In this document: positions 2,272 through 39,090 of the stretch, one piece after another
How the letters are laid out: the number at the start of each line of letters is the position of its first letter
How positions within the stretch are numbered: the first letter of the stretch is position 1
Virus record (IMG/VR): IMGVR_UViG_3300005563_000058
Coordinates: 1-41,083 of that record
Origin: a virus
DNA length: 41,083 nt
Reading direction: 5' to 3' (one strand)
Translations under genes and position numbers: made by a program
The notes under the pieces: model-generated
What the model was told of the DNA's origin: nothing
Databases searched by the model: none
The model's input: only the letters and a program-made list of their open reading frames with translations

Positions 2272-5028
2272 TTACTGGATGTAAATTTCAAAGCCTTGCA
2301 AAACCCCGGCACCACCCGCGCCCCCGGTAGGTGTTCCCCCGGTAACGCTAACAGACGCATGAACCGTGATAGTATTCAGCGCCGTCCCGGTTGGGATCGT
2401 CATTGAGTAATCCGCTTCTGCTACGTCAACGCCCGTAGACAACAGCGTGGTATCCACTCCTGCGACGGTAGCCACGATGGTTCCGCCCCAGGATGCTAGG
2501 CTGCTTGACGCCGATGCGCTGGCGACTACATGTAACGTCATGGGCGCAGTTGTCGTAATGCTTAGGAAACCAGACCAAATACAACTTCCACTGCTCGTGT
2601 TAGAAACCCACGATGGGTAAGACCCAGTGACCCACCAAGTTGCTTTAACAATCGCGTTGGTAGTTATGTCGTTGTCATACGCTGCTGCCGGGGTAGTAGT
2701 TGTTGAACTCCCCAAGTCAGTGCTCGTACTAGGCTGATACCGAGGGGTGTAAGATGGCGTGACAATCTTGCCAATTAGCAACCGCCCATAGACATTCGTG
2801 TAATCCGCAGGGTTCTGGGTAGCGACCGGAGTGATTACACCGGACGTGAAAGACGGGTCATCGAAGTAGACGCCATAAAGCTGTGACTGTGCCAAGCCTG
2901 TCAGGATTGCTGGGCTTGGAGTACAAGCCAGCGCGAGCGACCCAATCGTTGCGGTAAACGGAATGACTGTGATCTGCGCCGTACCGTCCGACAATCCCTG
3001 TGCGCTCAACGTACCCGGAGGAGCTACTGCACCGCCCCCGTAGGCGTAGATTGAAAGCGATGTGCCCACAACGTAACTGTCCATTTCGACCCATACGCTG
3101 GTTGCCCCGTTTGCCCTCAATGACCTAATCCGCACGTTGTATGTCCCATTTGCAACAACAGGAGAAATGTAACCAATGAAGTTGCCCACATCGCACAACC
3201 CTGAATCAGTCCATACCGATGCGCCTGTGAGTTGGTACTGTATCTGTATCTGCTTAACCAAGATGTCCAACGGGGCAGACCACGATACTGCAATTCGCGG
3301 GGTCACCGTACCATCAAGCCCAACCAAGGCATAACCCGGACCAGAGTTCAACGCCATGCCCGTGGGTGGTGCAGGCCGGAAAGGTATCTGGTTTGCAACT
3401 GGCACATCGTAGGGGGACAATTCTTCTGTGGATGCCCACGCGTACACGCTGGGGTCGGTTTCTGCTACTTCGACCTGAAGCATGATGTACGGAGCCGTGT
3501 TCTCATTGCCCTTCTCTACGACTAGCTTTACGCTCTGGACCTCCATCATTTTGTTTACCCACCCGTGAGCAGGGAACGTCATCTGCAAAACATCTGTGGG
3601 CTGGAGTTGCCAAGCGGCCAGGGATGTCAAGAATGTTCCCTTACCTTGCTGCCTGTTCCTCAATAGAGCAATCTTTGCAAGCCTCTGTGCCTGCCCAATA
3701 CTGAGTACGGTATTCAGGCTTAGGTCCATGGGCAGAATGACACCACCATCCGCCGCCAGGAACTCATCCCCGCCTGCATAACCGTGCAACGTGTCGCAAG
3801 CGTAGGTAGGGAAGTTGGTTGGTTGGAACGCAAAGGGGAATGTGTTATCCCTTGTGTGGTCATACCAGCCATTCGAGTCATAGAGATTACCAGCGACGTT
3901 GTAGGGGTAGTTGGGCGCAATGTATGTGCCGCTCACCCTGTTTACCAACGAGCCGAAGTCTCTATAGGCGTCCCACTTGATATCACCAAGAATCGAATCA
4001 TCGGTAAGCGTGAACGACGGGCCTTGCCAATAGGCGGGCCAGATGTACCACTCGCCCCCAATGCGACTCAACCTGCCCCCGGCTGCGGGCATCATGTTAT
4101 TGATTACATCACCCGGAGATACTGACGTGTCATAGTGCCAGTTCAGCGTGTAGCGGGATTCGCTAGGCGTGACTGCCATTGGAATGGACTCATCGCAAAC
4201 GTTGGCAGCCGCAATGAGTTGGGCGGTGTTGACGCTGCCCACATCTCCCAAACCATACTGCGTGTCTGTAATCGCATTGGCGACACAGAGCGCCCAATTG
4301 TTGCTGTAGCCTGTACTGCCATCACGCGGGTCGTAGATATCATTCTTGCCGCGCACTGTAAACCTAATCTCGGGTTCACCTGGGAACGTGTTGGTGTCAT
4401 AGCCCAGGTTGAGGTAGACATACGTGCAGCCACCAACCCATGGGGTACCACCTGTCGATGCCGCCCATGCGGGGTCGGGTGCCACATCAGCAACAATTAC
4501 GTCTCCCGGTGCCTGATCCCCGTAGCGAGCCTCACACCATACTTCACTTCCGAATGTGTAGTTCTGTCCGCCCGGTCCTACAAATGTTCCTGGGTCGGCG
4601 TACCCGCCGAAGTTGACTCCGTTGCGAGTCGAGTTACCCGGAGAACCTACATTCCAGTGAACCAATCTGCCATCGAGGTAAAGGTTCACAATGCTGTCGC
4701 ATTCGTGCCCTGCGAGGACAATGACGTAGTTGTAGTGGTTGTGGCTGTCTCCTGTGCTGCTCCTGTAGATTTCGACCCCGCCCACCCGCTGCTCTCCGTA
4801 GATGATCTGACGGTAGGCTGCGGCTTGGCGTGTCGTAATGTTGGTTCCACGATTGCTTGTAAGCGCGTCTGCAAGCGCCCCCAGTTCCATACTTACGCCG
4901 CCAGCAGCGAATGCAAAGAAAAGGGTATTAAGTGTTTCGGGAGCAATAAATGGTGCAAGTTCGGGGGCAAAGATGAAGATACCGGCAGCTACCCCCAAAA
5001 GGGCAGCGCCTTCAATGGCCTTAGACAC
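2272..5028 (-). CDS. tail tip / host attachment protein (lambda J-like)
   Basis: A 918-residue protein starting at GTG 5028, directly after the TAA of the peptidase gene and five bases behind GGAGGG. Residues 1-55 are hydrophobic and alanine/glycine rich. Residues 60-230 hold a J-like tip region (RQAAAYRQIIYGEQRVGGVE, VIVLAGHECDSIVNLYLDGR). The centre contains long beta-rich baseplate-hub sequence (IGGEWYIWPAYWQGP, LRNRQQGKGTFL). Around 555-655 there is a fibronectin type III-like segment (APPTGMALNSGPG, VSWSAPLDILVKQIQIQYQL). The last 200 residues are Thr/Ser/Ala-rich and probably form the host-contacting tip. Such proteins cap the tail and bind the receptor. Gene order after the peptidase supports the call. 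Confidence 0.85.
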   Translation of the reverse strand: MSKAIEGAALLGVAAGIFIFAPELAPFIAPETLNTLFFAFAAGGVSMELGALADALTSNRGTNITTRQAAAYRQIIYGEQRVGGVEIYRSSTGDSHNHYNYVIVLAGHECDSIVNLYLDGRLVHWNVGSPGNSTRNGVNFGGYADPGTFVGPGGQNYTFGSEVWCEARYGDQAPGDVIVADVAPDPAWAASTGGTPWVGGCTYVYLNLGYDTNTFPGEPEIRFTVRGKNDIYDPRDGSTGYSNNWALCVANAITDTQYGLGDVGSVNTAQLIAAANVCDESIPMAVTPSESRYTLNWHYDTSVSPGDVINNMMPAAGGRLSRIGGEWYIWPAYWQGPSFTLTDDSILGDIKWDAYRDFGSLVNRVSGTYIAPNYPYNVAGNLYDSNGWYDHTRDNTFPFAFQPTNFPTYACDTLHGYAGGDEFLAADGGVILPMDLSLNTVLSIGQAQRLAKIALLRNRQQGKGTFLTSLAAWQLQPTDVLQMTFPAHGWVNKMMEVQSVKLVVEKGNENTAPYIMLQVEVAETDPSVYAWASTEELSPYDVPVANQIPFRPAPPTGMALNSGPGYALVGLDGTVTPRIAVSWSAPLDILVKQIQIQYQLTGASVWTDSGLCDVGNFIGYISPVVANGTYNVRIRSLRANGATSVWVEMDSYVVGTSLSIYAYGGGAVAPPGTLSAQGLSDGTAQITVIPFTATIGSLALACTPSPAILTGLAQSQLYGVYFDDPSFTSGVITPVATQNPADYTNVYGRLLIGKIVTPSYTPRYQPSTSTDLGSSTTTTPAAAYDNDITTNAIVKATWWVTGSYPSWVSNTSSGSCIWSGFLSITTTAPMTLHVVASASASSSLASWGGTIVATVAGVDTTLLSTGVDVAEADYSMTIPTGTALNTITVHASVSVTGGTPTGGAGGAGVLQGFEIYIQ

Positions 5029-5469
5029 TTAAACCCTCCACGCCTTCTGCACATTGGTTATAGGCAGCCGAATCAATCCAGTTTCCCCGACCGAGATAAC
5101 ATCCCTGCCATTAAGGTGAACCAACCCAGCGATAAGCGTTCCTTCGTTGTCTACGATGACGAGATCCCCACGCTGTGCCTTCAAAGGGTGGGCGAGTTGT
5201 TCCATTCCTGCCTTTTCTGCACAGTATGCAGCGGCATCGGTAACAGTGGTTCCACCTGTAATCTTCTTGATAGCCTTGAGAGCGCCTGGAAGGTCTGTAT
5301 ATGTCCCTCTAAATTCGGCAGCCACGTCCACGCCAGTCATCGCTAAAATGCCCTCCGCAGCAAAAAGGCAGCAGTCAAAGACGCCGAATTTGAAAGGGCT
5401 GTCGGCTGTATTGAGTAGGAAATCGTGGTATGCAACCGTGTCCCAGTGAGCAGAACGAGTTAATGCCAT
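5029..5469 (-). CDS. tail assembly cysteine peptidase-like protein (NlpC/P60-related, DUF6950 type)
   Basis: The 146-residue protein has the motif PFKFGVFDCCLFAAEGILAMTG (its Cys pair around residue 33) and later AQRGDLVIVDNEG and LVHLNGRDVISVGETGL. This matches a phage family found between the distal tail gene and the tip gene, the place of the lambda K peptidase domain. The Cys of the FDCC motif would be the nucleophile. Family members are thought to act in tail-tip assembly or as peptidoglycan peptidases during entry. It ends with a TAA that abuts the GTG of the tip gene, so the two are translationally coupled. The start ATG at 5469 fits the usual length. Confidence 0.8.
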   Translation of the reverse strand: MALTRSAHWDTVAYHDFLLNTADSPFKFGVFDCCLFAAEGILAMTGVDVAAEFRGTYTDLPGALKAIKKITGGTTVTDAAAYCAEKAGMEQLAHPLKAQRGDLVIVDNEGTLIAGLVHLNGRDVISVGETGLIRLPITNVQKAWRV

Positions 5470-5474
5470 ATAGT

Positions 5475-6161
5475 TTAAGCGACCCTTTCTAGCGGGAAGT
5501 TCAAGCGGGCTAGTGTACCGTGGTAATAAAGTGCGCCACGGTCATAGGCGCGTGCTGCATCTTCTGCCGTCTTGTGCCTGCTACCTAAATAGTGCTGAAC
5601 GTTCTCGAAACGAACATTAGCTTGCCAGTAACCGCCCGTGGCTTTGCTGACTCCCCTGTACCCAGACGTATTTCGTAATGTCAAAGTCCGCTGATTAAGG
5701 GTTTGTTCTTCTGCTAATGACCACTTGACGTTCCCAACACAGTAATCACTCGTGGAGTCAATCCGGTCCAACGAGTGCAACGGGGTTGGCTTCTCCCCGA
5801 TATCGTCTTTGAACTCTTGGAAGGACGTGAACAACCACTTGATGCCGCTGCCGCCATAGTTGGCATAATCAGGGTCGTTCTTTTGATTGCAGCGATTCCA
5901 TGCATTCCTATAGGCCGTGTAGAGGACATGCCCTGGAGAACCTTTAGTGGCGCAGCCGTGTATGAGATTGACCGTTCTTTGCCGACAACCGCAGCTTGTT
6001 GTGTTGCCGCTGAGAAGCGAACTACCTACGCAGACTGTCGAACCACCACACTCGCACACACAATACCATCTGGCTTTACCGGCGTTTGAATTCTCTCGGC
6101 GCTCGACTACAGTCAGTCGCCCTATCTTCTTGCCCTTCAAGTCGTTCACCGGCTTGCCCAC
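5475..6161 (-). CDS. homing-type endonuclease with Cys-rich N-terminus and C-terminal AP2 DNA-binding domain
   Basis: The 228-residue protein begins with KIGRLTVVERRENSNAGKAR and a four-cysteine cluster (WYCVCECGG then TTSCGC), seen at the front of many phage homing endonucleases. The middle (SLDRIDSTSDYCVGNVKWSL followed by AEEQTLNQR) is the HNH-like nuclease segment, and residues 165-225 form an AP2 domain (SGYRGVSKATGGYWQANVRF, AARAYDRGALYYHGTLARLNF). The GTG start at 6161 lies seven bases behind GAGGGG. It sits between two tail genes that would otherwise adjoin and is preceded by a terminator-like hairpin, as expected for a selfish insertion. It is probably free-standing: no interrupted neighbour is visible. 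Confidence 0.85.
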   Translation of the reverse strand: MGKPVNDLKGKKIGRLTVVERRENSNAGKARWYCVCECGGSTVCVGSSLLSGNTTSCGCRQRTVNLIHGCATKGSPGHVLYTAYRNAWNRCNQKNDPDYANYGGSGIKWLFTSFQEFKDDIGEKPTPLHSLDRIDSTSDYCVGNVKWSLAEEQTLNQRTLTLRNTSGYRGVSKATGGYWQANVRFENVQHYLGSRHKTAEDAARAYDRGALYYHGTLARLNFPLERVA

Positions 6162-6179
6162 CTATAAACCCCTCATTCT

Positions 6180-6199
6180 AAAAAGGACGGTCATCGTCC
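6180..6199 (-). terminator. short terminator-like hairpin overlapping a tail gene stop codon
   Basis: On the minus strand GGACG (6195-6199) pairs with CGTCC (6185-6189) around a five-base loop, followed by five T (6184-6180). The TGA of the tail gene (6191-6193) lies in the loop. The stem is only five pairs, so termination is probably partial; genes to the left still need transcription. Confidence 0.5.
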
Positions 6200-6745
6200 C
6201 CACCTAAGTGCCACATCAGACAGGGATTCAACAGAATTGAATCCTGTATCATCTGGGTAGAGAACTCGTTGGTCCGCTGATGTATACCGTCTCTGTGTCG
6301 CACGCTGAAGGTTGAACATCCTTGTCTCCAGCGCCAGCGAAATACTGATAGTCTCAACACCCGTAGTAATGCTGGGCTTGTCTACCTGCCCTGAAAAGAG
6401 CAGGTAAGGAGTGCCGATGATGTGATTGGCGACGTTAAGAGCCGTGAACCATATCTTTGCGGGTGCGCCGACTTTGATATCTGTGAGGCAGTCGTTGAGC
6501 AACGCGGGGTCGATACCAGACAACGTGAGGCTCGTGCCCTCTGCCTTGACTTCAACACCCTCGGATATCGGCCCCATCTGCCCCAAGGAGCCAATGCCTA
6601 GATATGTGTTGCCGCTATAAACAAGCGGGCCGACTCCGCTCCACATGTACTGCGTGCTGGATCTCAGCGTGAGCATGACAAGGAAAGCGGGTCGGAAGAA
6701 GCTGGAAGCGAGAGTGGGGAGTAACGTAGATGCGCTGCGTGGCAT
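6191..6745 (-). CDS. distal tail / minor tail protein (DUF2163-like)
   Basis: ATG 6745 forms a TAATG junction with the stop of the upstream tail gene and has GGAGG eight bases ahead, giving 184 residues. The sequence FFRPAFLVMLTLRSSTQYMW, VYSGNTYLGIGSLGQMGPIS, EGTSLTLSGIDPALLNDCL and YLLFSGQVDKPSITTG is typical of phage proteins with the pattern 'Sg..y.g.G.lg.i....e...a....l.lsGi', found near the distal tail complex before the K-like peptidase. It likely forms part of the baseplate hub. The ORF is open back to 6805, but those residues overlap the neighbour and lack the motif. Confidence 0.75.
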   Translation of the reverse strand: MPRSASTLLPTLASSFFRPAFLVMLTLRSSTQYMWSGVGPLVYSGNTYLGIGSLGQMGPISEGVEVKAEGTSLTLSGIDPALLNDCLTDIKVGAPAKIWFTALNVANHIIGTPYLLFSGQVDKPSITTGVETISISLALETRMFNLQRATQRRYTSADQRVLYPDDTGFNSVESLSDVALRWGR

Positions 6746-7389
6746 TAGCGTGCCTCCGTGCAATCGAACGAAATCCCAAATGTCCGCGCTTCGCTTACGC
6801 TCCACTTACGAACGTTGGAAGACAGCCGGAAGAGTCCCTTGGGGTAGTTAAAGCTAATAGCTTCCCCGTCCGTAGTAGTGTCCCGCAGACTGGGCCAAAT
6901 GGTGATTGTTGCCAGCCCTAATGCATCGCTATCTACTTGGCTCAGTGCCATGTGCAAGCGGGGACCAATCGAGAGGTAATCTCCAGGGAGCAGCAACCTG
7001 TGGACAGCCGGTGCCCAGCCCTTCGTGCGTATCGTGGTAGCCCCGATGAGGTTCCCCCCACCCGTGACGCCATCCACGACCACCAAGCCCTTGGGGGCAC
7101 CTTGTGGTGTCTTGGCGTAGGGGTCTCCGAGATAGAAGCAATTAGCCTTGCCCCGGAGTTCCATCAAGAATGCAATCCACGTTGCCGCCGAAGCCCTGTT
7201 CATCGGCGGGAGACTTACATGAACCTGCCAAAAGTCTGCTCCCGGCCACTGCTGGAATTGGCTCTGCCCCGTAAAGGGGGACCGCGCCTCACCCACAGAG
7301 TCAGAGATTGTGAAATCTACAGACCTGAAACCCGGCTTAGTCGGAATGCCGATTATGTTCCATGAATTGAACGTGCCGATGACGGCCAT
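6745..7389 (-). CDS. distal tail protein
   Basis: ATG 7389 sits behind an ideal AGGAGG, giving 214 residues beginning MAVIGTFNSWNIIGIPTKPG. The chain is beta-rich (TGQSQFQQWPGADFWQVHVS, then ATWIAFLMELRGKANCFYLGDP) and ends VRKWSVSEARTFGISFDCTE. Proteins with a central 'W...aF...LrG..g.F.lgDP' pattern occur between tape measure and tip genes in siphoviruses and podovirus-like prophages and are tail components. It is coupled to the next gene by TAATG. The exact role in the baseplate is inferred from order. Confidence 0.7.
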   Translation of the reverse strand: MAVIGTFNSWNIIGIPTKPGFRSVDFTISDSVGEARSPFTGQSQFQQWPGADFWQVHVSLPPMNRASAATWIAFLMELRGKANCFYLGDPYAKTPQGAPKGLVVVDGVTGGGNLIGATTIRTKGWAPAVHRLLLPGDYLSIGPRLHMALSQVDSDALGLATITIWPSLRDTTTDGEAISFNYPKGLFRLSSNVRKWSVSEARTFGISFDCTEAR

Positions 7390-21689: not shown

Positions 21690-21956
21690 CTACTTGCGTT
21701 TGTTCAAACTGCCCTTGGGACGGCCTCTACGAGCCATCGTGTTCTCGGGTGGGGCTAGGACTTGAATCTCGGGGACGGATGGCGTGGCGGGCCTCTCGGG
21801 GGCCGGGACGAAGGGTGTGGCGATGCCTTGGGCAATCCATATACCGCCGAGGTAATCGGTCACTTCCGTTGTCTGTCCTTGCAGGAACTCGAAAGGTTCC
21901 CATGATCCGGGGGCAAGTCCATAGCCACCGTGCGGCTTTACAAATGTGATTTTCAT
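21690..21956 (-). CDS. small head-region protein with AT-hook-like basic tail
   Basis: ATG 21956 overlaps the stop of the GIY-YIG gene in an ATGA junction and gives 88 residues. The body (MKITFVKPHGGYGLAPGSWE, FLQGQTTEVTDYLGGIWIAQ) is a short beta-rich domain of the type found after phage capsid genes. The linker is Pro-rich, and the last 14 residues, ARRGRPKGSLNKRK, contain the GRP core of an AT-hook, which in other proteins binds the minor groove of AT-rich DNA. Without the intervening homing gene it would follow the capsid gene directly. Function unknown. Confidence 0.65.
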   Translation of the reverse strand: MKITFVKPHGGYGLAPGSWEPFEFLQGQTTEVTDYLGGIWIAQGIATPFVPAPERPATPSVPEIQVLAPPENTMARRGRPKGSLNKRK

Positions 21957-23044
21957 GCTGCCTTTCGGAGTTCGCGTGCGGCTTTCCTTGCGTCGAGCAT
22001 CATAGTTCTGTAAGCCGGGTCTGCCCAAAGTGCCTTTTGCTTCGCTGCATTATTAGCCTTGCGTTCGTCGCTATGGACCCGGCCCAACTGAACGGCTGCA
22101 AGTTTGGCTTTCGTTTCATCTGTGCGCTTCAGGCCGGTGATTGCCGCTGTACGTTTGGCGACGGTCTCTGGAGATTGCGTCTTGCCCGTGTGCGCTAGGC
22201 TCTGATTACGCTTTGCTTCCTCTGTGGCTTCTTTGCCTTTGTTCCAGGGCACGTTACCCATCAGGGTAGCGGCTATTTTGTCTCTGACATCTTGTGGAAC
22301 GGGAACGCCTTTGTTCGGCGCGACTCTACCAACATTGGCTGCGGAGATAAGCGCCCTAGTTTCGGGGGAGTGTGTCTTGCCATAGAAACCGTTCAATTCG
22401 CCTTTAAGCGGCACATGCGCATCTCTACGCTCGTCAGTCCATTTGGGCATCTTGCGCCCGGTGCCGGATGTGCTTCTTTTCTGGCGCTCCTCTTCAGTAA
22501 CGACGTGAGCGGCTATGCCTAACTTAATTGCTTCCCTGTGTTCGGGGGAGATAGTGCGCAGTCTCAAAGCAGCAATGGCGTTAGGATGGCAAGGAGTACC
22601 CTTGCGTGACTCGCTCATCTCTCTAATTGTTTCTTCAGAGAAGCAGTCTGTAATATCCTTATTCCACGGAATCTGCCCTGTTATACCCTTGTTCCACGGG
22701 GTTCTCCCAATCATTGCTGTTCTGATCTGCTCCGCTTTCCACTCTGTATAACCGCTACCTCCGACATTAAGGTTGTACCCAAACGCGCAGTCTTGCGCTT
22801 TGCACGCAAAAATGAATGCCACTTCAAGCGCATCCAACCACTCGCTTGCAACCTCAGCTAATGTCTCGATAACAAATGTGCCCTCGCCGTACTTCTGAAT
22901 TGCTCGTGTTATATAGAAGTTATTGAGCGACTTCCGCGCATTTCTCTTATGCGCCGACCACCTAGTGGATACCTTACTTACTGTTTGTCCGATGTAGACT
23001 TTACCGTTTACGCTATTAGTAATCTTGTAGATAAAGCCATTCAA
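21953..23044 (-). CDS. GIY-YIG homing endonuclease with NUMOD3-type repeats
   Basis: The nuclease begins NGFIYKITNSVNGKVYIGQT, the GIY-YIG signature, with downstream RWSAHKRNARKSLNNFYITR and the catalytic-region Glu in EWLDALEVAFIFA. After residue 100 come repeated DNA-binding motifs of the NUMOD3 type (TPWNKGITGQIPWNKDITDC, RKGTPCHPNAIAALR, LNGFYGKTHSPETRALISAA, HTGKTQSPETVAKRTAAITG), ending with a basic helix. I place the start at TTG 23044 just before the motif; AAAGG (23056-23060) lies 11 bases upstream. The open frame extends to 23134 through a large hairpin. The gene is wedged between the capsid gene and a small head gene. Free-standing homing enzyme; no intron is visible. Confidence 0.85.
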   Translation of the reverse strand: MNGFIYKITNSVNGKVYIGQTVSKVSTRWSAHKRNARKSLNNFYITRAIQKYGEGTFVIETLAEVASEWLDALEVAFIFACKAQDCAFGYNLNVGGSGYTEWKAEQIRTAMIGRTPWNKGITGQIPWNKDITDCFSEETIREMSESRKGTPCHPNAIAALRLRTISPEHREAIKLGIAAHVVTEEERQKRSTSGTGRKMPKWTDERRDAHVPLKGELNGFYGKTHSPETRALISAANVGRVAPNKGVPVPQDVRDKIAATLMGNVPWNKGKEATEEAKRNQSLAHTGKTQSPETVAKRTAAITGLKRTDETKAKLAAVQLGRVHSDERKANNAAKQKALWADPAYRTMMLDARKAARELRKAA

Positions 23045-23077
23045 GTAATGACATACCTTTCCGATGCCCTGTTTCCG

Positions 23078-23125
23078 GGCACCTACGGTGAGTTCGGGAG
23101 CGGCCCGAGGCAAACCGTAGGTGCC
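23078..23125 (-). other. large stable hairpin between the capsid gene and the GIY-YIG gene
   Basis: GGCACCTACGGT (23078-23089) and ACCGTAGGTGCC (23114-23125) form a perfect 12-pair stem enclosing 24 bases that contain a further CGGG/CCCG pairing. It starts 14 bases after the capsid TAA. There is no T-run, so it is more likely an RNA end-stabilising or translation-control element than a terminator. Confidence 0.7.
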
Positions 23126-23139
23126 TGAAAACAAAGGAG

Positions 23140-30492: not shown

Positions 30493-31140
30493 CTACGCTA
30501 TGTTGAACCATGAGACTCTATTCACGGCATCACTAATGACACTCCCTGTTACACCAAACTTGTGCCCTAACGCCCGTTGGGTAATCCCACCTGCGGCATA
30601 CAACTTCCGAATCTCTACGACACTTTCGGGGCACAACTTAGCATTCAACCCACGCTGAGTGTTAACAGCGTGTGTAACAGGCTCTAAATGATCTGGATTT
30701 ACACACTTACGGACGCGGCAAAGGTGATCCAATATCATACCATCGGGAACCGGGCCGTACTTTGCGACATACGCAGCTACATGTGCCCGTGTCTGTACTC
30801 CGTTGACGTTTGTCTCCCCGTAGCCCCACTCGTTTAAGCAATGGTTCCACACATGACAACCATTGGAGTCAATCGTGTATGGATTCGGTTTACTCCTGCC
30901 CCGAAGTTGGTGACCGAAAATATACCGCTTGGGTATGTTTCTCGTGACCGGCGCAAACGCGCCACAGCCGCACCCACATAATTGTGCTTTACGGCGCGGA
31001 ATCAAAGCCCTCGGTTGTAAATCGGGTAATCCGGTTCTCCGCATCCTGTAGTAGTGCGCACTGCAATAACCAATATGGACGCTCTGTGCTGCGCAGCCAT
31101 CTACAGAACAAGTAGGTCTAAACACCTTTGGTACTGGCAT
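30493..31140 (-). CDS. HNH homing-type endonuclease with Cys-rich front and C-terminal helix-turn-helix
   Basis: 215 residues. Residues 10-35 hold a zinc-type cluster (TCSVDGCAAQSVHIGYCSAH); a second set follows (LCGCGCGAFAP). The HNH nuclease core is at about 135-165: GMILDHLCRVRKCVNPDHLE PVTHAVNTQRG. The C-terminus is a helix-turn-helix (ESVVEIRKLYAAGGITQRAL GHKFGVTGSVI), as in homing enzymes that read DNA with a modular tail. ATG 31140 is eight bases behind AGGAG, which lies in one arm of a nine-pair hairpin. Located directly before the small terminase gene. Confidence 0.85.
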   Translation of the reverse strand: MPVPKVFRPTCSVDGCAAQSVHIGYCSAHYYRMRRTGLPDLQPRALIPRRKAQLCGCGCGAFAPVTRNIPKRYIFGHQLRGRSKPNPYTIDSNGCHVWNHCLNEWGYGETNVNGVQTRAHVAAYVAKYGPVPDGMILDHLCRVRKCVNPDHLEPVTHAVNTQRGLNAKLCPESVVEIRKLYAAGGITQRALGHKFGVTGSVISDAVNRVSWFNIA

Positions 31141-31328: not shown

Positions 31329-31730
31329 CTATATGGGTTGAATTGGAACCTTAACGTCGTACTCACGCCCGAATGCGTGATTTTCCCTGTAGGTCTTCTG
31401 ACTATGATGTGGTTTGCAGAGCGTTTCAGTGTTGGTCGGATCTAACCTGCGTTCGGGCGCTTCTATGATAGGGATAATGTGGTCAACTTCGTTTCCTGCC
31501 TTGATGATGCCTTGGCGGGCACATTCCTGACAGAGATGGGAGTCACGTTCTAAAATCGTGGGCCTGAACGCAAGCCACTGCGCATCATATCCGCGAGACT
31601 GTCTGCTCCCGCGCCTGAAGTCATAACTCTGCGTTACCTTGCGGTCTTTGGAATGCTCGGAGCACCAACGGGAATCGGACAGGTTGGGACAACCGCGAAC
31701 ACTGCACGGCCTCTTGGATCTCGTGGGCAA
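31329..31730 (-). CDS. HNH endonuclease of the packaging-associated type
   Basis: I use TTG 31730, giving 133 residues that begin (M)PTRSKRPCSVRGCPNLSDSR WCSEH, the standard start of terminase-linked HNH proteins ('rpC...gCp.l.....yC..H'). After a linker (RRGSRQSRGYDAQWLAFRPT) comes the HNH core: LERDSHLCQECARQGIIKAG, NEVDHIIPIIEAPERR, NTETLCKPHHSQKT. Proteins of this kind (HK97 gp74-like) work with the terminase in cos-site cutting and usually lie next to it. The frame is open upstream to 31862 but without family match. Unlike the flanking endonuclease genes it is probably a true packaging gene, though separated from the terminase by an inserted HNH gene. Confidence 0.8.
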   Translation of the reverse strand: MPTRSKRPCSVRGCPNLSDSRWCSEHSKDRKVTQSYDFRRGSRQSRGYDAQWLAFRPTILERDSHLCQECARQGIIKAGNEVDHIIPIIEAPERRLDPTNTETLCKPHHSQKTYRENHAFGREYDVKVPIQPI

Positions 31731-32175
31731 GTTGTGCTCGATTCTTGGGGTGCTTCCCTTATGTTTGGGAACTACGGAACGTTGGTGTAAGATATGGCGC
31801 GAATGTTTGCCCCCAGAGCACCCGTAGTGGTGGAGGACTTTAGCTTCGTGTGAGACGCACACAAACCCATGAGGTCTATGCAGCCACGACCCTGACGTGG
31901 AAGCCTTAACGCCGTAGTCGCTGGTACCGGCTCTACGGAACTGTCAATAGCTGCAAAGATTGTCACTTCGCCGTCGTGGTCAGCCTACTGGCCCACATTC
32001 CCACGTCTGCCCGACCCATGCTCGGGACCGACTGTACTTAATAAACTCGAATCTAAATGAGGGCGGGCAACGGTCGGAGAAAGTCACCCCGGAACGATCA
32101 CATCACGTCGCCCACCCTCTTGCGGAGGCTGAGGAGACGCCGTCACGCAAACTTGTACTTGTACTTGTAACTAAA
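31731..32175. other. intergenic stretch with an imperfect hairpin and TTGTAC repeats
   Basis: No gene is supported. GAGGGCGGGC (32059-32068) and GCCCACCCTC (32110-32119) form a ten-pair stem with one mismatch. At about 32150-32169 CTTGTA occurs three times in tandem. As the gap lies ahead of the packaging HNH and terminase genes, a cos site could be in or near it, but I cannot identify one. Confidence 0.4.
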
Positions 32176-32790
32176 CTATGCTGCATCTTCTTCTATGCTC
32201 TCGAAACCTTCCCAATCGCGTAGGCTCGGGAATGGTAGGTCTTCTTCAGCAAAGTTCAGCCTTGCAAACTCCCCGAAATAATACATCGCATTAACATCGT
32301 AGAGTGCCGCAGCCAGTCTTTCGCTTTTGGAAGTGCCCAACTTAATGAGTTTGCCATCTACACGGATTTGTGCAACCCACAAGCCCGTCGCACTGTTCAG
32401 ACTCACTCCCTTAAATCGAGACGTTTTGGGAACCCTGTGGATCTGCTGGTTCTGGCTATTCTGCCTACTTGTGGCAAACCGTAGATTTGCGCGTCTATGA
32501 TCGAGGGGCTTAGTAGGATCTATGTGGTCAACAATTTGCCCTGGCTTTGCACCGGTGATGAACCTGTGCAAACTCATGGTTCGTGATTCGCCGCCCGATG
32601 GTTTACGGTAGGCCGTGAAATATATTTGCTGATTCGTGATGCTCGCGCTCCAACTGTGTTGAATTGTGCGCTCCCAATCCTCGGGATCTAGGAGGACTCT
32701 ATAAGTCTCGCCAGTACGACCGTTCGAGACCATTAAGATGTACGCGCCGGTTTCGGAGTCAATGCGAATCGGTTGCTGCCGGTCAATCAC
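32176..32790 (-). CDS. HNH-AP2 homing-type endonuclease
   Basis: 204 residues from GTG 32790 (GAGAGGGG nine bases upstream). Residues 1-60 form the common front domain (RIDSETGAYILMVSNGRTGE, VLLDPEDWERTIQHSWSAS). HNH core: MSLHRFITGAKPGQIVDHID, PLDHRRANLRFATSRQNSQN. AP2 domain: SRFKGVSLNSATGLWVAQIR, ALYDVNAMYYFGEFARLNFA. The same architecture is used by the gene at 34797-35336, and the two are clearly homologous, though divergent. It is the first gene of the leftward block, preceded by one copy of a 52-base repeat. Free-standing mobile endonuclease. Confidence 0.85.
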   Translation of the reverse strand: MIDRQQPIRIDSETGAYILMVSNGRTGETYRVLLDPEDWERTIQHSWSASITNQQIYFTAYRKPSGGESRTMSLHRFITGAKPGQIVDHIDPTKPLDHRRANLRFATSRQNSQNQQIHRVPKTSRFKGVSLNSATGLWVAQIRVDGKLIKLGTSKSERLAAALYDVNAMYYFGEFARLNFAEEDLPFPSLRDWEGFESIEEDAA

Positions 32791-34764: not shown

Positions 34765-34782
34765 CTTAGGCGGGCGTGTCAA
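34754..34782 (-). promoter_or_regulatory. candidate leftward promoter of the XRE gene
   Basis: On the minus strand TTGACA (34782-34777), a 17-base spacer and TATCGT (34759-34754) form a good sigma-70-type promoter reading into the XRE gene about 95 bases away. Confidence 0.55.
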
Positions 34783-34796
34783 CTAAAAAGGGTGTT

Positions 34797-35336
34797 ATGG
34801 AAATAGACATTGATACGGGAGCGGCCATTTTAACGGTAGTGAGCAAGAAGTACGGGGCTTTTCGAGTTCTGCTCGATGCATCTGATTACCCACGAGTAGC
34901 CACTCATAAATGGTGTGTGCTCAAGAGCAAGAAGAATACTCTGACATATTTTGGTGCTAACTTGCTTATGTCAGACGGAAAACGAAAAACGCTATTGTTG
35001 CATCGTTTCTTGATGGACCCGCCGAAGGGGCTGCTCGTAGATCATAAAGACGCATACGACACCCTTGACAACAGACGTTCAAACCTCCGCATCGCCACTA
35101 GGGAGCAAAATAATCAAAACAAACGCCCAAGGACGGGAACAAGTAGTCAGTACAAGGGCGTGTCATGGACAAAACTACGAGGCAAATGGAGTGCGTACAT
35201 CACCAAAAGTGGAAGGACACTTCCACTCGGCTGCTGTGATTGTGAGATGGAAGCGGCGAAGTTGTACGATGCAGCGGCCATTGATTTGTTCGGTGAGTTT
35301 GCTTTGCTGAACTTTCCCATCAGTGCAGTGGCGTAG
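34797..35336 (+). CDS. HNH-AP2 homing-type endonuclease
   Basis: ATG 34797 lies five bases behind AAGG and gives 179 residues; an in-frame GTG at 34776 lacks a site. Front domain: EIDIDTGAAILTVVSKKYGA, FRVLLDASDYPRVATHKWCV. HNH core: LLLHRFLMDPPKGLLVDHKD, LDNRRSNLRIATREQNNQNK. AP2 domain: SSQYKGVSWTKLRGKWSAYI, AAKLYDAAAIDLFGEFALLNF. It is homologous to the 32176-32790 product. It stands between the regulator region and DNA polymerase, where homing genes are frequent. Confidence 0.85.
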   Translation: MEIDIDTGAAILTVVSKKYGAFRVLLDASDYPRVATHKWCVLKSKKNTLTYFGANLLMSDGKRKTLLLHRFLMDPPKGLLVDHKDAYDTLDNRRSNLRIATREQNNQNKRPRTGTSSQYKGVSWTKLRGKWSAYITKSGRTLPLGCCDCEMEAAKLYDAAAIDLFGEFALLNFPISAVA

Positions 35337-35535: not shown

Positions 35536-38500
35536 TTGCACACATCTCAAGAAGTGCCTGTATTGAATCCCGATAGTCTTGTGCCTGCTCTAAATCCAAT
35601 TTTGATCGTGGACGGTAAGGGGCTGGATCGACTCAAGAAGTATCTCGCAACCCCGCGCACGTACACGATGGACTATGAGACAACGTGTGTGGACACCTTC
35701 TACCAGCGGAAGGCTAGAACCCTCCAGATTGGCGACAGAAACGAACAATACATCATTGACCTACTGGCCTTCGCGGAGACCCCTGAGAGGCTGTGGAGGG
35801 CACAGGGAGGGTATCGTAGGCACGGGGTTCTGCTCAATAAGCGGCTAGTTCCTGAAAGGCGAACAATGGTTATCAACGGGAACCTAGAACGTGTCCCGGC
35901 AGAAGCATTAACTCCCATTGTTGAGCGGGTGCCGGTTGATTCCACGATTCTCCAGCCGGTTATCGATGTGATCCAACCCAGCATGGACTCTGACGAATGG
36001 CTAAAAGTCGGCCACATGTTGGAGTTCGAGTACATTGTCAGCAAGTGGTGCTTGGGGATTCGCGCATGGCATTTCTACTGCACACTGACCGCAGAGCGCA
36101 TCATCCACAATGGGGCAGTCCCGGCCATGCTTGCAGGGTTCTACGGCCTTGGGGACTTGGTACGTCGGTATTGTGGGTTTGAGATTGACAAATCCAGCCA
36201 AACGACCTTCGACCTCGAATCTCCGCTAACTGAAAAGCAGATTATTTACTGCGCATTGGATGTTCGGCTCCCATTAGCAATCAAGGCTGCCCAGGAAGTC
36301 AAGCTCAAGAAGGCGGGATTACAGTGGGTCACCCAGATTGAGAACGACGCAATCCCCGCATTCGGGGATCTCCACTTGAACGGAATGTATGTCAATCCCG
36401 TCAAGTGGCAGAAGATTATCGACGGGAACCAAGCCAGGCTGGTTGCGGCTGTAGAGGGGATCGACAAATTCTTCCTGCCCATCGTAGGAGCCAAGCGGCT
36501 GCCCAATCCCGAAGAAGCCGCAAGGCTCAAGGAAATTTGGAAGGGGCTGCAAGCCAAGAGTCAGAGGGAGACGGAACTTTCTGCTGAGATTCGCGGGGCC
36601 AAGAGCGATCCTGTGAAGAAAGCCGCGTTGATTGCAGAGCGGGACAAGGTTGAGGCCATGCGCGTAGCGTTGATCGCACCGGCCAAAGCACAGTATGCAA
36701 TCGAAGCCGGGTTCTGTACCAAGAAATACACAGATGAGTTCGACAAGTACGAAGGGCAGTCTGCAATCAATTTCAATTCGCCCGACCAACTCCTAGCTGC
36801 TCTCCACGCCGGTCCCTTTGGGTTGAACGCCAAGAATTTCCCGGCTTCCAACGACAAGGTAATGGAGCGCCATGCCAAGCTGCCGGTCATTGCAGCCATC
36901 CGTGAGCATCGCGGGGTAAAGCAATCCCTGAAGATGTATGGCGACCGCTGGATTAAGACACGCGATGAAATGAGCACGATTGGGAATCCCAAGCCGGGGT
37001 TCGTAGATCCCGACACCGGGCGCATCCACGCAAGGTTCAATCAACTGGGAGCGGACACCGGGCGACTGTCTTGCTCCAATCCGAACCTGTTGAACCTGCC
37101 CCATGAGGACATCATCCGCGAAGCGTTTGAGTCCCGCCCGAAGTTTGACATGGTTTCCAAGGATTGCTCTGGGCAGGAACTCCGGGTATTGACGCAGTAT
37201 TCAAGAGAACCGGCCTGGGTCCACGCATTTACTCATGGGCAGGACATTCACTCTGTGTCTACTCAAATGATTGCGCCCGAACTCTGGAAGGCGGCAACGG
37301 TAGAGGCATCGTGTGCGTTCCTGCACAAGAACAAGGCCAAGTGCTCATGCCCCGGCCACAAGAAACTCAGGAATGACTACAAGGCCGTGACTCTCGGCAT
37401 CATCATGGGCTTGGCTGCGTTCTCATTGGGCGTACAACTCGGTATCTCGACGGAGGAAGCGCAAGAAAAGATCGATAGTTGGATGCAGACGTTCACCCAC
37501 AACAAACGGGCTATTGAAGAGAATCAGAAGGTGTCTTACGACCGTGGGGAAGCCCGCACGTTGGCCGGTAGACGCCGCTTGATGAAGCAGGTTAGTTATG
37601 AACAAGCCAAGGCGTTTGCAAAGGACAAGTACAAAGACCAGTGTGATCAAGGCAAGATCACAAAGACAATGAAATCCTTGGTCGCTGCGGTCAAGCGCGA
37701 GGGAGGGAATGTTTCCTATCAAGGGTGCGTTGTTGGTGCGACTCAAGTCCTGGAGGAGACAAGGGGACTATGCAGGATTGAAGACCTTTGTGGGCGCTCC
37801 GTCAGGATTTGGGATGGCGAAAGATTCGTTTCTGCTCATGTTGTCCATAGCGGGCCAAAGCGCCTTGTGAGGATTACAGCGGCGGGTCGCAAGGTGTTTG
37901 AATGCAGTCCTGACCATAAATTCAATGTCTCTGGGACGCGAGGTAACTGGTTCTGGAAAACGTCTGAGGAGTTCAGCAAGCAGACGTGGATTAAGTTCAA
38001 TGAAGAAATGCCACAGTGGTGCGCAACTGATATTAAGTATCCTGAAATATACAATGCCCGCGCATCAAACGGTAAGGGTGTAGTAATCCAGCAGATAAGT
38101 GACCACATGCTGTTGGGAGAGTTTGTCGGCAGGATCGCATCAGATGGGTCGATTGGCCCAAACAAAGCCGTTACGCTGATCATTGCCGAACATGAGAAGG
38201 CGATCTTGCCAAGGCTTAGGGAAGGCATGTTGTGCTTAGGCGGGGATCGCTGGGCAGAACGGTCAAAGCAAAAGAAGGGTGACTTTCTTAATGGGCAGCG
38301 ATATCAGCCTGTACATTCCTACACATTGGCCGACTCTACGCTTGCTAATCAGCTATGGTTGGCAGGAGTCAAGCAAAAGGTTCCTGAGTTCATCATGCAG
38401 TCGTCTGATATGTTGCGGGGTTATCTGAGGGGGATGTTCGACGGGGACGGCACTGTTTACCGAGATGGGATTATGTTGACGTTCGGTCAGATACAAAGAA

Positions 38501-39090
38501 AGGAAGGGTGGGCGAGACAAGTTCAGTCGTGTTTGGCGGCGTTGGGCATTCAGGCAAACGTACATATTAACGCGGGTGCCACTGTCGTGCGGGTGGTTAA
38601 GCGAGAGGCTTTGAAGTTCCAGGAGCGCGTGGGTTTTATGAACCCGGTGAAGCAACAGAAGTTGCGCGACTTGATTCAGGTGGGGTCAAAGCGTGGATTG
38701 TCCGTAATCTACGGTCATGCCGTGTCTGTGCGGAGCGTTGAAGTAACGGACCAATGGGTAGAAATGTACGACGTAGTAGACAGCGAGAGCCACAAGTTTA
38801 TGGCGAACGGGTTGATTACTCATAACTCCAGCGCCGACTTTATGAAACGTGCAATTGGCTGCGGATTCGATAAAGAAGGCAACCCGTACCTGTGGCATAT
38901 CCTTGAGCCTGAGTTTGGAGCGATGCTGGAGAATTTTCCATATGATGAACTGGTCACAGAGAGTCCAGAGCCAAACAGTGAAGCAGTCTCAGCAGCGGTA
39001 TCCGATGCGATTATCAGGGCGGGCGCGGAGTTGGTTACAGTCGTCCCGATGGAGAGCGAAGGCAAGATTGCTAAATCCTGGAGTAAATAA
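35536..39090 (+). CDS. polA: family A DNA polymerase with 3'-5' exonuclease domain, interrupted by an intein
   Basis: TTG 35536 lies five bases behind AAGGAAAG. The precursor has 1184 residues; removing intein 731-1097 leaves 817. Exonuclease: MDYETT (Asp 46, Glu 48), HMLEFEY (Glu 165 where Asp is usual) and YCALD (Tyr 238, Asp 242). Polymerase: motif A KDCSGQELRVL (Asp 543), motif B RNDYKAVTLGIIMG (Arg 612, Lys 616, Leu 620, Met 624), motif C as YDE (Asp 1137). A fingers insertion has Cys/His residues (CAFLHKNKAKCSCPGH). The enzyme replicates the phage genome. There is no 5'-3' exonuclease domain. Leu at the Pol I 762 position has been described for many environmental viruses and linked to temperate lifestyle. 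It starts the replication operon. Confidence 0.95.
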   Translation: MHTSQEVPVLNPDSLVPALNPILIVDGKGLDRLKKYLATPRTYTMDYETTCVDTFYQRKARTLQIGDRNEQYIIDLLAFAETPERLWRAQGGYRRHGVLLNKRLVPERRTMVINGNLERVPAEALTPIVERVPVDSTILQPVIDVIQPSMDSDEWLKVGHMLEFEYIVSKWCLGIRAWHFYCTLTAERIIHNGAVPAMLAGFYGLGDLVRRYCGFEIDKSSQTTFDLESPLTEKQIIYCALDVRLPLAIKAAQEVKLKKAGLQWVTQIENDAIPAFGDLHLNGMYVNPVKWQKIIDGNQARLVAAVEGIDKFFLPIVGAKRLPNPEEAARLKEIWKGLQAKSQRETELSAEIRGAKSDPVKKAALIAERDKVEAMRVALIAPAKAQYAIEAGFCTKKYTDEFDKYEGQSAINFNSPDQLLAALHAGPFGLNAKNFPASNDKVMERHAKLPVIAAIREHRGVKQSLKMYGDRWIKTRDEMSTIGNPKPGFVDPDTGRIHARFNQLGADTGRLSCSNPNLLNLPHEDIIREAFESRPKFDMVSKDCSGQELRVLTQYSREPAWVHAFTHGQDIHSVSTQMIAPELWKAATVEASCAFLHKNKAKCSCPGHKKLRNDYKAVTLGIIMGLAAFSLGVQLGISTEEAQEKIDSWMQTFTHNKRAIEENQKVSYDRGEARTLAGRRRLMKQVSYEQAKAFAKDKYKDQCDQGKITKTMKSLVAAVKREGGNVSYQGCVVGATQVLEETRGLCRIEDLCGRSVRIWDGERFVSAHVVHSGPKRLVRITAAGRKVFECSPDHKFNVSGTRGNWFWKTSEEFSKQTWIKFNEEMPQWCATDIKYPEIYNARASNGKGVVIQQISDHMLLGEFVGRIASDGSIGPNKAVTLIIAEHEKAILPRLREGMLCLGGDRWAERSKQKKGDFLNGQRYQPVHSYTLADSTLANQLWLAGVKQKVPEFIMQSSDMLRGYLRGMFDGDGTVYRDGIMLTFGQIQRKEGWARQVQSCLAALGIQANVHINAGATVVRVVKREALKFQERVGFMNPVKQQKLRDLIQVGSKRGLSVIYGHAVSVRSVEVTDQWVEMYDVVDSESHKFMANGLITHNSSADFMKRAIGCGFDKEGNPYLWHILEPEFGAMLENFPYDELVTESPEPNSEAVSAAVSDAIIRAGAELVTVVPMESEGKIAKSWSK
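37726..38826 (+). other. intein with LAGLIDADG homing endonuclease in DNA polymerase
   Basis: The 367-residue element begins with Cys (CVVGATQVLEETRGLCRIED) and ends LITHN, followed by Ser as the first residue of the second extein. Splicing block B is seen in VFECSPDHKFNV, block F in WVEMYDVVDSESHKFMANG. Two LAGLIDADG helices are present: LLGEFVGRIASDGSIG and LRGMFDGDGTVYRDG, so the endonuclease is probably complete. The flanking exteins join as NVSYQG/SSADFMKRA, the conserved 'N..iQG.aAD..K' motif between motifs B and C. Confidence 0.95.

Follow-up and report, generated by a model that had tools for sequence, protein, structure and literature searches.

Inteins in the DNA polymerase I (PolA) genes of phages are already known. 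Phage DNA polymerase I was among the listed intein hosts by 2005 (PMC549080), and PolA is included in the intein host list of 2018 (PMC5874633). The DNA polymerase P45 of phage APSE-1 is, like the protein described here, a phage family A polymerase with an intein in the same conserved segment, but that intein is located about eight residues upstream, before CENICQ, and contains an HNH open reading frame instead of a LAGLIDADG endonuclease; hence, the two inteins do not share an insertion site, and the present one adds to a known kind. The PolA intein of Bacillus phage fHSPT3 (L060, PP626411.1) is also LAGLIDADG-type and 26% identical to the present intein over part of its length, but it lies far upstream, at TGTA|TTRLSS, which constitutes a third PolA intein site in a gene annotated as encoding a hypothetical protein. 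The inteins of mycobacteriophage large terminase subunits (TerL) likewise reside in the active site of a phage enzyme, and both splicing and cleavage of intein-free partners were demonstrated for them (PMC5050341), but their host is a terminase and not a polymerase. Cyanophage Mic1 was ruled out as a precedent, because its inteins are in TerL rather than in the polymerase. In the open-access library that was searched, no description was found of the PolA intein site QG|S/T, which is the subject of this analysis.

The stretch of DNA analyzed here (the window) comprises 41,083 bases and corresponds to an entire IMG/VR virus record. It contains a polymerase reading frame, with AAGGAAAG directly 5′ of its start codon, into which 1101 nt are inserted in frame, so that residues 731–1097 split the polymerase between NVSYQG and SSADFMKRA. 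The features of this gene are as follows.

35536–39090, plus strand: polymerase open reading frame, TTG start, open over 1184 codons.
35536–37725, plus strand: N-extein, 730 residues, ending in NVSYQG; comprises polymerase motifs A and B and the 3′–5′ exonuclease domain (Pfam DNA_pol_A_exo1 and DNA_pol_A).
37726–38826, plus strand: intein of 367 residues, class 1 with a LAGLIDADG endonuclease (from Pfam, same-site homologues, alignment and model).
37726–37764, plus strand: block A with Cys1 (37726–37728).
37906–37917, plus strand: block B S-x-x-H, S61 to H64.
38104–38148, plus strand: first LAGLIDADG helix (127–140 in the model), catalytic D140 at 38143–38145; D140-G141 unchanged in all four of the closest inteins.
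38404–38451, plus strand: second LAGLIDADG helix (227–241 in the model), catalytic D241 at 38446–38448; D239-G242 unchanged in all four of the closest inteins.
38770–38826, plus strand: blocks F and G with D349 and H366-N367 (38821–38826).
38827–39087, plus strand: C-extein with the +1 Ser (38827–38829), SSADFMK and motif C PYDE, aligned to Taq polymerase and relatives.

The original prediction had placed the insertion at 37726–38826, within a conserved family A site, and the reading frame together with the intein-free alignments showed that these borders are exact to the base. The insertion site is QG|S/T, corresponding to G850|T851 of E. coli PolA, and the segment that holds it is nearly invariant in family A, as N845 and Q849 are identical in all 50 aligned polymerases. 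In the reading frame, Pfam recognized LAGLIDADG_3, the family A polymerase domain and the 3′–5′ exonuclease, as well as Intein_splicing with a score under its curated cut-off; the DNA polymerase match ends ahead of the insertion. Removal of residues 731–1097 leaves a continuous host protein with a computed length of 817 residues, which aligns to Taq polymerase (E 7e-29) and to 27 intein-free relatives without a break at the junction; at the N-terminus, the match to the polymerase of Tunturiibacter phage Tunturi_4 starts at residue 5. No target duplication was found at the insertion, and none is expected from homing. The continuity of the exteins and the presence of homologues at the same site ruled out an assembly or out-of-frame artefact. 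A group I intron was also ruled out, as no Rfam family was found in the window.

Class 1 inteins are defined by Cys or Ser at position 1, the block B motif S/T-x-x-H, an Asp in block F, a terminal His-Asn and a Cys, Ser or Thr at position +1. All of these residues are present in the window intein, which is followed by Ser as the +1 residue. In an alignment of ten same-site inteins C1, S61, H64, D349, F358, H366 and N367 are invariant, and C1, S61/H64, H366-N367, D140 and D241 are invariant among the four closest of the same-site inteins. The Pfam family Intein_splicing (PF14890) matched residues 38–367 with an E-value of 3.3e-7 and a score of 30.7 bits, which is below the curated cut-off of 35.8; this cut-off only sets a score and does not define what an intein is, and the family was matched with E below 0.001 by each of the ten same-site inteins. 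The expectation that a complete LAGLIDADG intein with Cys1, the block B His, the terminal His-Asn and the +1 Ser would be found here was borne out by Pfam, the same-site homologues, the block residues, none of which is lost on alignment, and the empty relatives described below. Hence, self-splicing of the window intein is predicted as very likely.

To find other carriers, IMG/VR was scanned with a pattern for the C-terminal junction. The scan returned 16 loci, of which 15 were PolA genes whose intein ends precisely at the QG|S/T point and one was a chance match; because the carriers were recruited by this junction, frequencies cannot be read from the set. Both intein ends were readable in 12 of the 15 PolA loci, while the intein start was not read in the other three. 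After copies were merged, nine distinct, fully read same-site inteins remained, and L083 was added by a profile scan. The lengths of the same-site inteins range from 204 to 460 amino acids. A scan with an N-junction pattern (K/E-R...N...QGC....T) gave only two chance matches with no long frame. The C-junction pattern of the window's own clade (HN-TNAS..K) gave only three chance matches, which indicate the scan background beside the 15 true matches out of 16 in the junction scan above. No near-identical copy of the window intein was found. The closest intein to it was that of L068, located at the same PolA site, with an E-value of 6e-76 over all 367 residues, while the best E-value match in the phage collection was LR745208.1 (L059), a 485-kb uncultured phage with a PolA intein at NSVNSPVQG|TSADITK.

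The same-site inteins form two supported clades. The first one (100/98) consists of the inteins of the window, L068 (=L080), L073 (=L082), L074 (=L081) and L083. The other four members resemble the window in that the PolA intein is placed at the QG|S/T/C codons (one residue upstream in L083), is 354–364 amino acids long, has the same splicing and LAGLIDADG residues and is 34%–41% identical to the window intein over its whole length, but their host polymerases are only 21%–30% identical to that of the window in the polymerase domain. In L083 (reading frame 4828–7338) the intein is inserted at Q|S rather than QG|S, and the polymerase motif is QSGAQ. The second clade (100/99) includes inteins of 400- to 500-kb phages; the inteins of LR745208.1, L065, L067, L070, L075, L077 and L078 share with the window the insertion site, the splicing domain and mostly the LAGLIDADG part, but they form a separate clade, have an extra C-terminal stretch before block F and span the 204–460 amino acid range. 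Mini-inteins without an endonuclease are present at the same site in L070 (7060–7671, minus strand, 204 amino acids) and L077 (2451–3104, plus strand, 218 amino acids). Two PolA inteins occur together in L059 (LR745208.1), L065, L070 and L076, one at the site of the window and the other in the O-helix, directly before (S/C)NFALCYGG. Intein insertion at QG|S/T (G850|T851) is recurrent, and two intein groups use the site.

The endonuclease part of the window intein matched Pfam LAGLIDADG_3 with an E-value of 1.7e-9, which is over its cut-off. Sequence, Pfam, the structure model and the fold matches agree on two LAGLIDADG helices, each ending in a catalytic Asp (D140 and D241), so that the helices are intact, as they had looked in the original prediction. 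An AlphaFold model of the intein, built on the ten-member alignment of same-site inteins, had a mean pLDDT of 85.8 and a pTM of 0.88. This predicted fold matches solved splicing-and-homing inteins, the best PDB matches being the TliVMA intein (7qsu, 2.6e-17), PI-PfuI (1dq3) and PI-SceI (1vde), and PI-PfuI was also found by a sequence profile (1.1e-14). All three combine a Hint splicing domain with a two-motif LAGLIDADG endonuclease, as does the window intein, but they come from archaeal or yeast hosts and other genes, and are 12%–18% identical to it. The model of the whole precursor was weaker (pTM 0.62) and too weak to place the intein relative to the polymerase; in this model the break separates two helices, one of which ends at residue 726 and the other starts at residue 1098. 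Judged from the sequence, present homing by the window intein is plausible. The splicing part could alternatively be intact while the endonuclease is dead and the intein is now merely inherited, and the mini-inteins of L070 and L077 indicate that such decay occurs at this site; however, the two LAGLIDADG motifs have kept D140 and D241 and are intact, and the model of the domain is confident, which makes a dead endonuclease doubtful, although it should be kept in mind.

Scans of viral contigs and genome contigs with a single protein, either the intein or the N-extein, gave no match, and neither did a scan of genome contigs with the polymerase alignment. The nearest polymerases in viral contigs were reached using short motif segments followed by a three-sequence alignment. 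They were those of L021 and L022, with 53% and 48% identity overall and 56% in the polymerase domain, after which the identity of relatives is at most 37%; the relatives also include that of Tunturi_4, from soil. The insertion at the QG|S point was absent from the nearest polymerase relatives, including all three of these. The joint alignment of the exteins with intein-free phage PolA was continuous through the junction, and its 367 intein columns contained zero residues in all ten empty relatives versus 353–361 in L080, L081, L082 and L083. Because a same-site PolA intein matches the insertion along its entire length and the ten empty relatives have no residues in these columns, a chance resemblance to an intein is excluded at the sequence level. 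In the maximum-likelihood tree the window polymerase and 27 intein-free rows, two of them identical, form a clade of 28 with support of 100/99. The site DNA of the window and of the nearest empty alleles matches at 20–25 of 40 bases, so that it should not be taken for granted that these particular alleles would be cut.

The identities of the inteins and of their host polymerases were compared within each clade. In the group of the window, which spans five PolA lineages, the inteins are 32%–43% identical and the polymerases 21%–34%, and the inteins are more alike in all ten pairs; this order also held in optimal pairwise alignments of the three window pairs that were checked. The comparison is conservative, since the polymerase domain is slow-evolving, and it gives no rate estimate, as the ten pairs depend on one another and the junction was used to recruit the carriers. 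These data provide strong circumstantial support for horizontal transfer of inteins between distant phage polymerases within this group. The order was the opposite for five representatives of the second group, in which the polymerases (52%–67%) were more alike than the inteins (42%–53%) in 10 of 10 pairs, and thus this group, including the 400- to 500-kb phages, looks vertically inherited. The behavior of the second group could suggest that the intein at this site is old and was inherited vertically with many losses rather than spread between lineages. As an explanation for the window this appears unlikely, because the order is reversed in every pair of its own group, the sister polymerases of the window are empty, and the presence or absence of the intein on the polymerase tree requires six changes, at least three of which are forced by well-supported branches. 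Hence, we favor, with a probability of roughly 90%, the explanation that the insertion is a canonical class 1 splicing intein with a sequence-intact LAGLIDADG homing endonuclease, belonging to a group which has moved between distant phage polymerase lineages. The anatomy and borders of the intein, the same-site homology, the empty alleles in close relatives, the predicted fold and the closer likeness of inteins than of host polymerases were computed, and from these we infer the splicing reaction, the DNA cleavage and the present mobility.

The window phage itself appears rich in homing endonucleases, because the window contains five further genes resembling those of mobile endonucleases, four of which are HNH (including two AP2-HNH) and one GIY-YIG.

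21953–23134, minus strand: mobile-endonuclease-like gene.
30493–31140, minus strand: mobile-endonuclease-like gene.
31329–31862, minus strand: mobile-endonuclease-like gene.
32176–32790, minus strand: mobile-endonuclease-like gene.
34776–35336, plus strand: mobile-endonuclease-like gene directly upstream of the polymerase.

Among relatives of the window phage, L034 and L035 have inteins in TerL, and in L034 there is a further one in a ribonucleotide reductase.

The state of the host polymerase was assessed in an alignment of 50 polymerases. The window protein keeps the catalytic acids D705, D882 and E883 together with R668, E710, R754, K758, R841, N845 and Q849. The usual family A residues F762, Y766 and H881 are replaced by Leu, Met and Tyr; L762 and M766 are encoded at 37393–37407, and Y881, which is Tyr for His in motif C, at 38941–38943. 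Leu762 and Tyr881 are each present in four of the 50 polymerases, while Met766 is found in the window alone. These minority residues and the unique Met766 could be explained if the host gene were a decaying polymerase, with the intein residing in a non-functional gene. We consider this very improbable, because all catalytic acids and R668, R754, K758, R841, N845 and Q849 are kept, the reading frame is open throughout, the motif C Tyr is common to both nearest relatives, L021 and L022, and Leu762 is a frequent natural viral type, described as slower and more accurate and mainly linked to temperate phages (PMC6302109). The three substitutions are more likely to be variation than the loss of a required residue, and the polymerase looks divergent rather than dead. 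About 40 extra residues of the exonuclease domain (35824–35950, polymerase residues about 97–137), modelled with very low confidence, are without counterpart in L019 and L010.

According to the favored explanation, the whole 1184-residue precursor would be translated first, after which Cys1, aided by S61/H64 of block B, would attack the Gly-Cys bond, the chain would be passed to the +1 Ser, and Asn367 would cyclise with the assistance of H366; these roles are assigned from the established chemistry of class 1 inteins. The exteins would then be ligated into an 817-residue 3′–5′ exonuclease/polymerase. PolA genes that lack the intein would be cut by the endonuclease at the conserved QG|S/T codons, and the intein would be copied in during repair of the cut. 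As the insertion separates R841, N845 and Q849 from motif C, the unspliced precursor is expected to be inactive. The original prediction had concluded that splicing would gate replication; the part that stands is the insertion into an essential motif and the expected inactivity of the precursor, while the gating in a regulatory sense found no support, and no feature specific to regulation was found. A regulatory intein, in which conditional splicing responsive to redox, temperature or DNA damage was co-opted to set when phage replication begins, would be consistent with this separation and with the conditional splicing of some other inteins (PMC5874633). Such a role is nevertheless improbable, since 27 of the 28 polymerases of the clade manage without an intein, mobility accounts for its presence, and the tested phage TerL inteins spliced fast (PMC5050341). 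It is quite improbable that G850|T851 is a hot spot for at least two intein lineages, that transfer occurred between phage polymerases of 21%–34% identity and that splicing truly controls the start of phage DNA synthesis, all at once.

Overall, these data add, for the family A polymerases of phages, a well-supported site of intein insertion within the catalytic core. Virus surveys commonly use PolA as a marker gene, and an intein at this site lengthens the gene and can hide the C-terminal part of PolA from annotation. The compact intein group is a source of new candidates for splicing whose QG|S junctions occur naturally. Because empty, occupied and endonuclease-free mini-intein alleles are found at the same codons, homing, cross-phage transfer and endonuclease loss become testable at one position, and the usefulness of the window intein is increased by the recurrence of its site and by the contrast between its own, seemingly mobile group and the other, which appears to be inherited vertically.
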